A stretch of DNA of 64,000 nucleotides from Nitriliruptoraceae bacterium (lineage in GTDB: Bacteria > Actinomycetota > Nitriliruptoria > Nitriliruptorales > Nitriliruptoraceae), in assembly GCA_003565155.1 (NCBI GenBank), contig PXDB01000049.1, positions 1 through 64,000 of the forward strand. The letters are read 5' to 3'. The notes beneath the pieces are model-generated. The model saw only the letters and a program-made list of their open reading frames with translations, was not told where the DNA came from and ran no database searches. Position numbers and translations under genes: made by a program. Positions 37,991 through 46,724 of the stretch are shown here, in pieces. Each line of letters starts with the position of its first letter. Positions within the stretch are counted from its first letter, which is position 1.

Positions 37991-38263
37991 TCACTGGCCG
38001 CGGGCGAAGCGGAAGTACACGAAGATCCGCCCGTGGTTGCCGGGGTCCTTGTCGATCCGGTGGTAGCGGTCACGCATGTCCTTGCGGTCCAGGAACCGCA
38101 GCACGCGCTTGCGCAGGGCGCCGCTGCCCTTGCCGGTGATGATCTCCAGCTCCTTGAGCTTGCGGGCCTCGGCCTCGTCCATCGCCTCCCGCAGCGCCTG
38201 GTCGATGGCGCGCCCCTGGTTGAACACCGGGTGCAGATCGAGGGTCATCTTCCGTGAGGACAT
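37991..38263 (-). CDS. Smr-domain protein
   Basis: LDLHP, LEIITGKGSGALRKRVLRFL, GRIFVYFRF. Confidence 0.82.
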   Translation of the reverse strand: MSSRKMTLDLHPVFNQGRAIDQALREAMDEAEARKLKELEIITGKGSGALRKRVLRFLDRKDMRDRYHRIDKDPGNHGRIFVYFRFARGQ

Positions 38264-38303
38264 CCGGCTGCCTTCCCGCGCGGTCCGGTCACCCGCAGCA
38301 GCC

Positions 38304-38849
38304 TCAGCCGTCCGGCAACGTGGCCAGGGCCCGTGCGTGGACGTCGAGATCGTCTGCCGAGAACAGGACGAACCGTACGAGACGCACGCCCACACCGCCG
38401 ACCAGCGCCTGGTGGACGGTGGTCAGGGCGACCTCGGCAGCTGCCGTGGCGGGGTAGCCGAACACCCCGGTGGAGATGGCCGGGAAGCCGACGCTGTCCA
38501 GCCCCTCCCGGGCAGCGAGGTCGAGGGCACCGCGGTAGCAGGCGGCGAGCAGCTCAGCCGCCGGCTCGTCGCGGCCGTACACGGGGCCGAGGGCGTGGAG
38601 GACCCGCCGGTTCGGGAGGCGGAAGGCGTCGGTGGCCACCACCTCACCCGGAGCGATGGGTGCCAGGGGACGGCACGCCGCGGCCAGCCGGCGTCCCGCG
38701 GCCCGGTGGATGGCACCCGCGACGCCGCCTCCGGGCTGGAGCTCGGCGTTCGCGGCGTTGACCACCGCGTCGAGGTCAGGTTGCGCGGTGATGTCGCCCT
38801 GGACCAGCTCGATCCTGGACCCGGCCACCCGTAGCTCGGTGCGGTGCAT
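38304..38849 (-). CDS. Macro-domain (ADP-ribose binding/hydrolase) protein
   Basis: VQGDITAQPDLDAVVNAANAELQPGGGVAGAIHRAAG; FPAISTGVFGYP. Confidence 0.92.
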   Translation of the reverse strand: MHRTELRVAGSRIELVQGDITAQPDLDAVVNAANAELQPGGGVAGAIHRAAGRRLAAACRPLAPIAPGEVVATDAFRLPNRRVLHALGPVYGRDEPAAELLAACYRGALDLAAREGLDSVGFPAISTGVFGYPATAAAEVALTTVHQALVGGVGVRLVRFVLFSADDLDVHARALATLPDG

Positions 38850-38922
38850 GGTGTTGGCCTCCCCTGCGGCGGGCGGCTGCTCCCGTGCACCACCGCCCGT
38901 GCCACCTCGGCGTCGGCACTCC

Positions 38923-39654
38923 TCAGCAGCTCTCGAAGGGCCCGCAGGCCGCGTTGGCGTGGAGTCCGTTGCCCAGAGACGGGAACTCGGTGAGCGCCTC
39001 GACGAAGGCCTCGAAACGTTCGTCCTCACCCTTCTCGCTGCCGGCGAGGCCGTCCTCGATGGCGGTGCACACGTCGTCGAAGCTGGCCATCGCCCGCTCG
39101 TGCCACTCCTCGGCGCCGTCGGGAGGTGCCACGTCACGCAGCGGCTCGACAGCGGCCGCGTACGCCTCGCGGTGCTCGTCGAGCTGGCCCTCCAGGGTCG
39201 GGCCGTCGCTCACCCCCGACAGCAGCTCATCGAGGTCGGCCGCCATGTCGGCGACCAGCAGCTCGAGCTCGAAGTTGGCCTCCAGGGTCAGTCGCTCGTA
39301 CTCGTCGGCGTCCACGGGTGTGCCACCCTGGGTCGTGGCGAGATCGCAGGCACCGAGCGCCGCGGGCTCCTCCTCCACAGCGTCATCCGACTCCCCGTCG
39401 CCCTCGGCCGACTCCTGGGTCGCGTCGTCGCCGTCCTCGGACGCCACGTCCGTGTCCTCGTCGTGCTCCTCCGGCTCCTCCGGCTCCTCCTCCGGCTCCT
39501 CCTCCGCGACCTCCTCCGGCTCCGAGGTCGCGACGGCCACCCCCTCGGGGTCCTCGGTCCCGCAGGCGGCGAGCAGCAGCGCGGCCACGACCACGAGCAC
39601 CGCGCGTCGGTCCGTACGACCACGACGTCGATCACGCACGTGGAACCTCCTCAT
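38923..39654 (-). CDS. Lipoprotein with Glu/Asp-rich low-complexity linker
   Basis: Lipobox LLLAACG, acidic tract, C-terminal helical domain. Confidence 0.7.
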   Translation of the reverse strand: MRRFHVRDRRRGRTDRRAVLVVVAALLLAACGTEDPEGVAVATSEPEEVAEEEPEEEPEEPEEHDEDTDVASEDGDDATQESAEGDGESDDAVEEEPAALGACDLATTQGGTPVDADEYERLTLEANFELELLVADMAADLDELLSGVSDGPTLEGQLDEHREAYAAAVEPLRDVAPPDGAEEWHERAMASFDDVCTAIEDGLAGSEKGEDERFEAFVEALTEFPSLGNGLHANAACGPFESC

Positions 39655-39828: not shown

Positions 39829-42105
39829 TCACAGCTGCCCTCGGTCCAGGCCCGACATGGTCGTGGCGATGGGGCGCAGGTGGTCGTACCACGCCTGCTC
39901 CGCGGGGCGTCGCCCACCGTCGGGGTCCAGCATCTCCCGGAACCGCGACAGGGGCGTGAAGGTGATCCTGCCCTGGACCAGCCCGCACATCGCGCTCTCC
40001 GGCGCCTCGCTCTCCAGGGTCGACAGCATGTGGTCCACGCACCGCACCGCGAAACGGGTGGCCTGGATGCGGTCGAAGGGGCTCGGGTCCCCACCCTGCT
40101 GGACGTGGCCGAGGATCGACTGGCGGACGTCGAACAGCCCGCCGCCCTCCTTCTCGAACAGCGCCCACAGGAAGGGCGTGGTGTACACATCGTCGGCACC
40201 CTCTCCGCGGATGATCACCCCCAGCCGCTGACCGCCACGGAACCGCTCGGTGAGGCGTTCCACGTCGTCCTTGAGCAGGTCGAGGGTGATCCCCTCCTCC
40301 GGGGTGTAGACGAACTCCGCCCCTGTGGCCAGGCCACCGGCCAGGGCGAGGTAGCCCGACTCCTTGCCCATGACCTCCACCACGAACACCCGGGTGGAAG
40401 CCACGGCCGACTGCTTGATCTTGTCCACGTCCTCCACGATGGCGTTCAGGGCCGTGTCGGCGCCGATGGTGAACTCCGTGGCGGGGATGTCGTTGGAGAT
40501 GGTCATCGGCAGGCACACGATGGGCAGGTCGAGCTCCGGGTGGCGCTTGCGCGCCTGGTGGAGTGCCTCGGCCGTGACGTAGCCGTCGAAGGTGCCGAGC
40601 ATCAGCAGCCCGTCGATGCGGTGCTCGGTGATGGCCCGTGCGATGCCCTCGAGGTCGGTCCGGCCGGGGGTGCACCGCTTGGTGCCGAGATCCGCCCCGC
40701 CGTGGGAGACCCAGCCGTGCACCGACATCCAGTCGAGCTCCTCCACGTGACCGTCACGCAGTCCCGGGAAGCCGCCCTTGACCCCCAGCGCGACGTGACC
40801 ACGGTCGAGGATGTAGCGCACCGCGGCACGCACCCCGGTGTTCATCCCTGGTGCCAGACCCCCGCCGTGGACGATGGCGATCCGCCTGGACTCCCCGCCC
40901 TCCTCGTGGGTGCGTGGGCGCCCGCGCACCAGGGTGCGCATCGTCTCGTAGGCCTCGACGAACCCCGGGCCACGCAGCTGCATCGCCTCGTCGTAGCGCT
41001 TCTCCTTCAGCAGCCCCGCGACGGACCGGGTGCGCTCCACCGCGTCCATCAGCGGCGAGGTCACGATCCGGTTCTCGCGGATGCCGACCAGCTGCGCCTC
41101 CTGCGCCGCGCTGCCGGCGGCGAGCTCCTGGACGGCGTGGTAGCCGCAGCGGGAGGCCAGGACCCGGTCGAAGGCACTCGGCGACCCGCCGCGCTGCACG
41201 TGGCCGAGGATCGTGACGCGGGTGTCCTCACCGAGCCCCTCGGCCAGGATGTCGCGGACCCGCTCGGAGGTGATCGAGACCCCGTAGCGGTCACGGGCCC
41301 CCTCGGCCACCACGACGATGTTCTGGCGCCGGCCGTACTGACGCCCCGTGGCCACGGTGCGCCGCAGTGCCTCCTCCCAGCTGGCGGTCTGCGGGGGGCG
41401 CTCAGGGATGAAAACCCACTGGGCGCCGGTGGCCAGGGCCGACATCAGGGCGAGGTAGCCGCAGTTGCGCCCCATCACCTCGATGACGAAGGAACGCTGG
41501 TGGCTCGAGGCGGTGGAGTGCAGCGCGTCCAGGGCCTCGGTGATGCGGTGCAGGGCGGAGTCGGTCCCGACGGTCATGTCGGTGCCGAACATGTCGTTGT
41601 CGATGGAGCCCACGATGCCAACCAGCTGGAGCACCGGATGGCTGTCCGCGGTCTCCTGCTCGAGCTGGCCGGCTTCCACGAGCTCCCCCAGCAGCTCCGG
41701 CCACTCGCTGGACAGCAGGTTGGCACCGGTGAGCGAGCCGTCCCCGCCGATCACCACCAGCGCGGTGATGCCGCGCGTGACGAGGTTGAGCGCGGCCTTG
41801 CGGCGGCCGTCGCGGGTGCGGAACTCCTCGCTGCGGGCGGTCCCGATGGCGGTGCCACCGCGGTGCAGGATCCCACCGACGTCCGAGGAACCGGCCTTGA
41901 GGATCGCGTCGCCACCCTCGACCATGCCGACGTAGCCCTCGTGGATGAGGTAGGGCTGGATGTCCAGGGCGAGCGCCGTGCGGACGACGGCACGCACGGC
42001 GGCGTTCATGCCGGCGGCATCGCCGCCGCTGGTCAGGACACCGAGGCAGTGCGGCTTCGTGGGGGCGTTGGCGGGCGCGTCGGTCACCGGGGTCCTCCGG
42101 GTCAT
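39829..42105 (-). CDS. Fused two-domain (eukaryotic-type) ATP-dependent 6-phosphofructokinase
   Basis: Two PFK domains in one ORF. N-half: IGGDGSLTGA, GIVGSIDNDMFGTDMTVGTDSALHRI, SSHQRSFVIEVMGRNCGYLAL. C-half: LGTFDGY, LPMTISNDIPATEFTIGADTALNAI. Confidence 0.94.
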   Translation of the reverse strand: MTRRTPVTDAPANAPTKPHCLGVLTSGGDAAGMNAAVRAVVRTALALDIQPYLIHEGYVGMVEGGDAILKAGSSDVGGILHRGGTAIGTARSEEFRTRDGRRKAALNLVTRGITALVVIGGDGSLTGANLLSSEWPELLGELVEAGQLEQETADSHPVLQLVGIVGSIDNDMFGTDMTVGTDSALHRITEALDALHSTASSHQRSFVIEVMGRNCGYLALMSALATGAQWVFIPERPPQTASWEEALRRTVATGRQYGRRQNIVVVAEGARDRYGVSITSERVRDILAEGLGEDTRVTILGHVQRGGSPSAFDRVLASRCGYHAVQELAAGSAAQEAQLVGIRENRIVTSPLMDAVERTRSVAGLLKEKRYDEAMQLRGPGFVEAYETMRTLVRGRPRTHEEGGESRRIAIVHGGGLAPGMNTGVRAAVRYILDRGHVALGVKGGFPGLRDGHVEELDWMSVHGWVSHGGADLGTKRCTPGRTDLEGIARAITEHRIDGLLMLGTFDGYVTAEALHQARKRHPELDLPIVCLPMTISNDIPATEFTIGADTALNAIVEDVDKIKQSAVASTRVFVVEVMGKESGYLALAGGLATGAEFVYTPEEGITLDLLKDDVERLTERFRGGQRLGVIIRGEGADDVYTTPFLWALFEKEGGGLFDVRQSILGHVQQGGDPSPFDRIQATRFAVRCVDHMLSTLESEAPESAMCGLVQGRITFTPLSRFREMLDPDGGRRPAEQAWYDHLRPIATTMSGLDRGQL

Positions 42106-42161: not shown

Positions 42162-42506
42162 TCAGGCCCAGCCGAGCTCGTGCAGTCGATCGTCATCGAT
42201 GCCGAGGTGATGGGCGAACTCGTGGACCACGGTGACGTAGACCTCTTCGATGAGGTCCGCATCGTCCTCGGCGACCGCGCAGAGCGGTAGCCGGAAGATC
42301 CGGATCACGTCCGGGGTGGCGCCGCTGTACTCCTCGCGCTCGGTGAGCGGGACGCCCTCGTAGATCCCGAGGAGGTCGGGTTCCTCCTCGTGGGCGTCCT
42401 CCACCAGCACCACCACGTTGTCGAAGCGGGACCACAGCTGCTCCGGCACGGCGTCCAACGCCGCACCCACCAGGTGTTCGAAGCGGGGCTGAGGGATCGG
42501 GTCCAT
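42162..42506 (-). CDS. Zincin-like metallopeptidase family protein
   Basis: HEFAHHLGID (HExxH), LVEDAHEEEPDLLGIYEGVPLTERE. Confidence 0.87.
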   Translation of the reverse strand: MDPIPQPRFEHLVGAALDAVPEQLWSRFDNVVVLVEDAHEEEPDLLGIYEGVPLTEREEYSGATPDVIRIFRLPLCAVAEDDADLIEEVYVTVVHEFAHHLGIDDDRLHELGWA

Positions 42507-45572: not shown

Positions 45573-46724
45573 GTGAGGATCGGCATCCTGACCGGCGGCG
45601 GCGACGTCCCCGGCCTCAACCCCTGCATCAAGGCGGTCGTCGACCGCGTCATCTACGACGGCCACGAGGTCGTCGGCTTCCGGCGTGGCTGGGCCGGGCT
45701 CCTCGAGTACGACATCGACGACCCCGAGGGCTCCAACGAGCGGTGCGTCATCGACCTCGACAGGAACCGGGTCCGCGTCATCGACCGTACCGGCGGGACC
45801 TTCCTCCACACCTCGCGGACCAACCCCCAGCGGGTGCGCGACGGTGAGGTGCCGCACTTCCTGAAGGAGCAGGCGCTCGGTGACGGCCCCCACGACTTCA
45901 CCGACCACACGATCCGGGTCCTCGAGCACCTCAACATCGACGCGATGATCCCGATCGGCGGTGACGACACCCTCTCCTACGCGCTACGGCTGCACGAGGA
46001 GGGCTTCCCGGTCATCGCGATCCCGAAGACCATGGACAACGACGTCCACGGCACCGACTACTGCATCGGTTTCTCGACCGCGGTCACCCGCTCGGTGGAG
46101 TTCATCCACCAGCTGCGGACCTCCACCGGCTCCCACGAGCGCATCGCCGTGGTGGAACTGTTCGGCCGGTACTCCGGTGAGACCTCCCTGATCGCGGCCT
46201 ACCTCGCCTCCGTGGACCGCGCCGTGATCTCCGAGGTGCCCTTCGACCCCGAGCGCCTGTCCGCGCTGCTGATGGAGGACAAGCGGCAGAGTCCCTCCAA
46301 CTACGCGATGGTCACCGTCTCCGAGGGAGCGACCTACACCGGCGGGGACATCTACCTCTCCGGCGAGGAGGACGCCTTCGGCCACCGCAAGCTCGGCGGC
46401 ATCGGCCAGCGCACCGGCGAGATGATCAAGGAGCTGACCGGCGAGGACATCATCGTCCAGCAGCTCGGCTACCTGATGCGGTCGGGGCGGCCTGACTCCC
46501 TGGACCTGATGGTGGCCACCAACTACGCGGTCATGGCGGCAGACCTCGCGGTCGAGGGCCAGAAGGGCCGTATGGTCGCCCTGCGCAGCGGCACCTACAC
46601 CAACGTGCCGATCACCGCCACGGGGGACGGTGCCCGCCGGGTGGACGTGGACGCCCTCTACGACAGCGAGGCCTTCAAGCCGAAGCTGCGCCAGGTCGCG
46701 GGGAAGCCGATGTTCCTCTACTAG
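45573..46724 (+). CDS. Phosphofructokinase with PPi-dependent-type motifs
   Basis: [20 protein letters not shown] and [21 protein letters not shown]; Asp in GGDD and Lys in PKTxDND are typical of PPi-PFKs. Confidence 0.88.

Follow-up and report, generated by a model that had tools for sequence, protein, structure and literature searches.

From 1984 onwards, eukaryotes have been credited with joining two bacterial-like phosphofructokinases (PFKs) into one protein, an innovation said to have enabled complex control of glycolysis. The stretch of DNA analyzed here (64,000 nucleotides from a Nitriliruptoraceae bacterium, hereafter the window) holds a gene predicted to encode just such a fused enzyme, and thus poses the question of where the fusion arose and what its second half does in a bacterium. 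In the part of a 2025 review of the superfamily that we consider here, duplication and tandem fusion are described as characteristic of eukaryotic PFKs, and bacterial members go unmentioned (PMC12203962); two 2026 preprints likewise present the fusion as eukaryotic, and one of the two describes control of PFK by fructose-2,6-bisphosphate (F2,6BP) as eukaryote-specific (PMC12889660, PMC12873801). A literature search, with most subscription journals outside its scope, found no published description of a bacterial double-lobe PFK. The bacterial sequences themselves are already public and are scored by the TIGR02478 model, so they are not new to databases.

The open reading frame and its catalytic lobe

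The fused PFK gene lies on the minus strand and spans exactly positions 39829..42105, an open reading frame of 758 codons that begins with ATG, ends with TGA and contains no internal stop. Because a GGAGG stands just upstream of a GTG at position 42087, six codons inside the ATG, this GTG is suggested to be the true start, giving a protein of 752 residues; residue numbers below refer to the 758-residue version from the ATG. The original prediction had read two PFK domains in this single frame, and the motifs that it quoted are present as written: the Pfam PFK domain matches the frame twice, and the NCBIfam equivalog TIGR02478 (6PF1K_euk) matches residues 20-752; its score of 930.4 bits exceeds the cut-off (708.4) and also lies well above those of the single-domain PFK models. 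In the PDB, the top matches are human PFKP, PFKM and PFKL, aligned over the full length with E values of ~1e-209 to 1e-203 and ~46% identity. Chance is ruled out as an explanation.

An AlphaFold model of the protein, built from 22 bacterial members (mean pLDDT 84.3, pTM 0.87), superimposes on human PFKL and PFKP with TM scores of 0.91-0.92 and ~46% identity over ~740 columns, and bacterial single-lobe PFKs match just half of it. Pfam and the model together thus place two PFK lobes in one chain, which is predicted to adopt the eukaryotic fold. Based on the frame, the profile and PDB matches and the predicted fold, we propose that the product of the gene is an ATP-dependent 6-phosphofructokinase built, like animal and fungal PFK-1, on a double-lobe plan.

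The N-terminal lobe (residues 20-362; 41020..42048, minus strand) carries the motifs GGDGS (120-124), SIDND (167-171, with the catalytic Asp169), MGR (211-213) and HVQR (302-305), together with R204, E268 and R296. When aligned with human PFKP (PDB sequence 4wl0; human PFKM was represented by 4omt), its catalytic and fructose 6-phosphate (F6P)-binding positions are identical to those of the human enzyme, as the predicted likeness of this half to animal and fungal PFKs had implied, and the sole difference in the ATP pocket is a serine in place of Cys98 of PFKP, as in the yeast alpha subunit. The human site numbers are those of the UniProt entry for PFKP, and the expected residues are present in the 4wl0 sequence. 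The catalytic aspartate and the GGDG[ST] motif are kept in all of the 110 bacterial N-lobes compared.

Shared fusion and direction of transfer

A survey of four phyla (Actinomycetota, Chloroflexota, Myxococcota and Fermentibacterota) recovered full-length TIGR02478 matches above the cut-off in 25/397 Actinomycetota genomes, including 14 of the 19 genomes of the window organism's own family, and in 19/201 Chloroflexota genomes; a search of one Chloroflexota order recovered the fused gene in 11/20 genomes. It is also present in 1/146 Myxococcota and 1/3 Fermentibacterota genomes, where the cases are the seeds of their own searches. The eukaryotic architecture that the original prediction noted is real, but it is no single anomaly: the fused PFK is a normal gene of its family in a Nitriliruptoria-type actinobacterium and a member of a widespread bacterial family.

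To relate this family to the animal and fungal enzymes, we split 28 bacterial and six animal or fungal proteins at the linker and placed the resulting 68 lobes in a tree with 19 single-domain PFKs. The N-lobes all fell into one clade (support 100/99) and the C-lobes all into a second (100/100), both of which mix bacteria and eukaryotes, and a second tree from a different sample recovered the same two clades (100/97 for the N-lobes, 100/100 for the C-lobes). Since N-lobes group with N-lobes and C-lobes with C-lobes across bacteria and eukaryotes, we take these sequence trees to show that a single duplication-fusion took place before the bacterial and eukaryotic members separated, the eukaryotes in question being opisthokonts. 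The fused PFK, shared in this way between the bacterial family and the animal and fungal enzyme, is thus probably no eukaryotic invention.

Next, we consider the direction in which the gene passed between the two groups. One Chloroflexota order holds a deep and distinct branch of fused PFKs (L153, L194-L202), with LPGSIDNDT in the N-lobe and, in most C-lobes, HxQRGG, the single-domain state. In most analyses this order (L153, then L194-L201) splits off before the eukaryotes and the other bacteria separate, with support for eukaryotes plus other bacteria of 100/98 in the N-lobe, 100/97 in the C-lobe and 100/99 in a concatenation of both lobes rooted with single-domain PFKs; in the C-lobe it also comes first when single-domain outgroups are omitted. 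The first rooting hung on one long-branched sequence, L153, and further members of the order were added, which broke the branch. A mirrored tree of N|C and C|N concatenations was rooted at the same place, but since all data enter it twice, we do not rely on it.

With the deep Chloroflexota order branching before the eukaryotes, we favor, without regarding it as proven, an origin of the duplication-fusion in bacteria, perhaps in Chloroflexota, from which the ancestor of the animal and fungal gene would have been acquired. The reverse is unlikely but retains some weight: the fusion would have arisen in an early eukaryote and passed to one or several bacterial lineages, followed by spread among Chloroflexota and Actinomycetota. 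The patchy occurrence of the gene in these two phyla agrees with such a history, and so do those approximately unbiased (AU) tests that do not reject the bacterial proteins as one clade beside the eukaryotes, namely with L153 as the only deep taxon (p 0.185) and with the N-lobe in the absence of single-domain outgroups (p 0.329). The tests are borderline overall (p 0.03-0.33): bacterial monophyly is disfavored for the N-lobe (p 0.042) and the C-lobe (p 0.029) and has p 0.051 for the concatenated lobes, so that the placement of eukaryotes within bacteria is not robust in every analysis.

Besides the early split of the Chloroflexota order in both lobes, a transfer from eukaryotes to bacteria has against it the diversity of the bacterial members (the window protein and the deep clade are 44-47% identical) and the ancestral residues in their C-lobes. 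Residues common to single-domain PFKs are retained in bacterial C-lobes at a mean of 0.72 compared to 0.59-0.67 in eukaryotes, and nine ancestral states occur in several bacteria and in none of the sampled eukaryotes, with no case of the reverse, a count that is weakened by unequal sample sizes. If the C-lobes of eukaryotes change faster, they could look derived for that reason. The direction is not settled, because the eukaryotes in the trees are six animal and fungal proteins, taken from PDB sequences, and a protist lineage outside this sample could branch deeper. The original prediction, which saw a bearing on the history of eukaryotic PFK, had not chosen between the two directions; the present results lean towards bacteria.

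The C-terminal lobe

The C-terminal lobe (residues 407-752; 39850..40887, minus strand) had been described as degenerate and of a regulatory type, and comparison with human PFKP and 110 bacterial members agrees with this description. By alignment, GTFDGY (residues 504-509; 40579..40596, minus strand), a lost Mg-ATP motif, stands where GGDGS is expected, and Ser537 (40495..40497, minus strand) occupies the position of the catalytic aspartate. GGDGS was not found in any of the C-lobes compared (110 bacterial and six eukaryotic proteins), and the Mg-ATP aspartate is replaced by W, F or L in every C-lobe tabulated. At the catalytic position the bacterial members have N (81), D (18), S (9) or T (2), and all six eukaryotic sequences have serine. 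The MGR motif is present in most bacterial C-lobes, compared to MGG or QGG in all six eukaryotic ones.

The sugar-phosphate pocket is kept: R477, R572, MG (579-580), E635, R661, H667 and QQ (669-670) are in place, and equivalents of R481, R576, E639, R665 and H671 occur in at least 105 of the 110 bacterial C-lobes. In a non-redundant set (n=51), the majority residue at six core pocket positions reaches a mean of 98% compared to 69% for the C-lobe taken as a whole (permutation p 0.00025), a difference that argues for selection acting on the ligand pocket. At the citrate site, defined by PFKM positions 557, 591 and 617 (PMC2990764), the lysine at 557 is found in 108/110 bacterial members, the aspartate at 591 is replaced by glutamate in 109/110 and position 617 is variable.

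We picture the enzyme as follows. The N-lobe would move a phosphate from Mg-ATP onto F6P, and the C-lobe would be a former active site that has lost the use of ATP and still binds a sugar phosphate, though as a ligand rather than a substrate. As judged from its residues and from homology, the C-lobe would set the activity of the enzyme and very probably act as an allosteric sensor. The fusion would have happened once, most likely in bacteria, and the ancestor of the animal and fungal gene would then have been taken from bacteria. As a whole, the combination of a double-lobe ATP-PFK, a C-lobe sensor and a single fusion, with a bacterial origin favored, is the best explanation at hand, and we consider it likely.

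The C-lobe could alternatively be a structural scaffold, or could still be partly catalytic in some bacteria, rather than an allosteric sensor. The 18 of 110 bacterial C-lobes that retain the catalytic aspartate speak for this, yet we rate it as quite improbable: the loss of the Mg-ATP aspartate in all tabulated C-lobes goes against catalysis, and a scaffold would have no need of a pocket whose conservation far exceeds that of the remaining lobe. The C-lobes in which the aspartate persists and the Mg-ATP motif is gone (L005, L009, L066, L067, L070, L077, L078, L080, L085, L093, L094, L103, L135-L137, L139, L141, L152) are, by their residues, apparent intermediates between an enzyme and a sensor.

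For a C-lobe acting as a sensor, the nature of the ligand matters. PFK-2 is the enzyme that makes F2,6BP. Its family (PF01591) was not found in 47 genomes, nearly all of them carriers of the fused PFK and the window genome among them (the controls were weak, sub-threshold matches). With PFK-2 in 0/47 genomes, we judge F2,6BP improbable as the ligand in vivo, and the C-lobe pocket therefore probably binds a sugar phosphate other than F2,6BP, most likely fructose-1,6-bisphosphate (F1,6BP), F6P or another bisphosphate, although F2,6BP could come from an enzyme outside PF01591. If the ligand is not F2,6BP, the regulatory half is older than control by F2,6BP. We lean slightly towards a history in which the double-lobe PFK came ready-made from bacteria of the Chloroflexota and Actinomycetota sphere, with duplication, fusion and the conversion of one active site to a sensor all bacterial and control by F2,6BP grafted on later, at a sugar-phosphate site already in use for another ligand. 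The order of events, whether the sensor half preceded F2,6BP and the eukaryotes, becomes testable, and the bacterial proteins are simple enzymes in which to seek the original ligand of the C-lobe.

The decay pattern of the C-lobe, the lobe boundary and the linker length are common to bacterial and eukaryotic fused PFKs. These shared features bear on convergence, the notion of a duplication and fusion of PfkA within bacteria, separate from that in eukaryotes, for which single-domain PFKs, common in fused-PFK genomes, would have been raw material at hand. Convergence is extremely unlikely: the lobe trees refute it under the models used, unless these suffer from a gross artefact. Similarly, a recent and independent duplication of an actinobacterial PfkA, raised at the outset as a challenge to the original prediction, is rejected: the two lobes are neither mutual nearest relatives nor close to the single-domain PFK of the same genome (L002), which falls in a distant PKTIDND group.

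Host genome, neighborhood and known phosphofructokinases

Contamination was the other challenge raised at the outset. That eukaryotic DNA or a wrongly binned contig entered the metagenome-assembled genome has in its favor that the source assembly is a 3.5 Mb draft in 129 contigs (83% complete, 4.9% contaminated), but its probability is negligible, because the gene lacks introns, has native codon usage (r 0.986 with its neighbors; GC3 0.937), recurs in most genomes of the family and, together with its upstream neighbor, in sister genomes, and is present in the RefSeq isolates Geodermatophilus sp. YIM 151500 and Pseudonocardia bannensis DSM 45300 and in several carrier genomes that are 99-100% complete. 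Plasmid-borne spread is rejected as well, with no full-length fused PFK found among 72,556 plasmid records. Matches in a phage collection (H11-H20) are single-domain, pfkA-sized stretches, mostly on short contigs, and the N- and C-terminal halves of the query both match each of them; they are therefore probably host DNA in phage assemblies.

The source genome holds two PFK genes besides the fused one. One of them lies inside the window, 3.5 kb from the fused PFK (45573..46724, plus strand), and encodes a single-lobe protein of 383 residues whose motifs, GGDDT and PKTMDND, are a pyrophosphate (PPi)-donor signature. A PPi-type PFK occurs within 8 kb of the fused gene in 10/80 loci from Actinomycetota and Chloroflexota (L026, L027, L028, L031, L032, L064, L092, L099, L101, L104), directly adjoining it in the Chloroflexota loci L064, L099 and L104. 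With a regulated ATP-dependent enzyme next to one that uses PPi, the PFK step may have two interchangeable routes. As further context, the gene directly upstream of the fused PFK, here (42162..42506, minus strand) and in its four closest relatives (L025, L026, L027, L028), is metallopeptidase-like (Zincin_1, PF06262), and a Macro-domain gene (38307-39137) and an Smr-domain gene (37994-38395), both on the minus strand, lie just downstream with no apparent link to it.

Among known enzymes, the eukaryotic ATP-PFKs (TIGR02478 / IPR009161; human PFKP, PFKM and PFKL, yeast Pfk1/Pfk2) share with the bacterial fused PFK the two fused lobes, the duplication, the fold, a catalytic N-lobe and an ATP-dead C-lobe with a conserved sugar-phosphate pocket. 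The bacterial protein differs from them in its host, in the lack of PFK-2 among the genomes searched, in the retention of the catalytic aspartate and MGR in some C-lobes, in the variability of citrate-site position 617, and in having neither the C-terminal tail of the mammalian enzymes nor the N-terminal glyoxalase-like domain of the yeast ones. Bacterial single-domain PfkA (Escherichia coli, Geobacillus stearothermophilus; TIGR02482) resembles the N-lobe in fold, catalytic residues and ATP as donor, but it has one lobe of ~320 residues, every subunit is catalytic and its effector site takes ADP or PEP only. The mixed-substrate or PPi-type PFKs (TIGR02483-like, as at 45573-46724) belong to the same superfamily and are often found near the fused gene, yet they are single-lobed, carry their own donor signature and are distant in sequence. 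The ATP-PFK of Trypanosoma is eukaryotic and ATP-dependent but matches the fused PFK weakly, and according to the superfamily review it is not a product of the duplication (PMC12203962).
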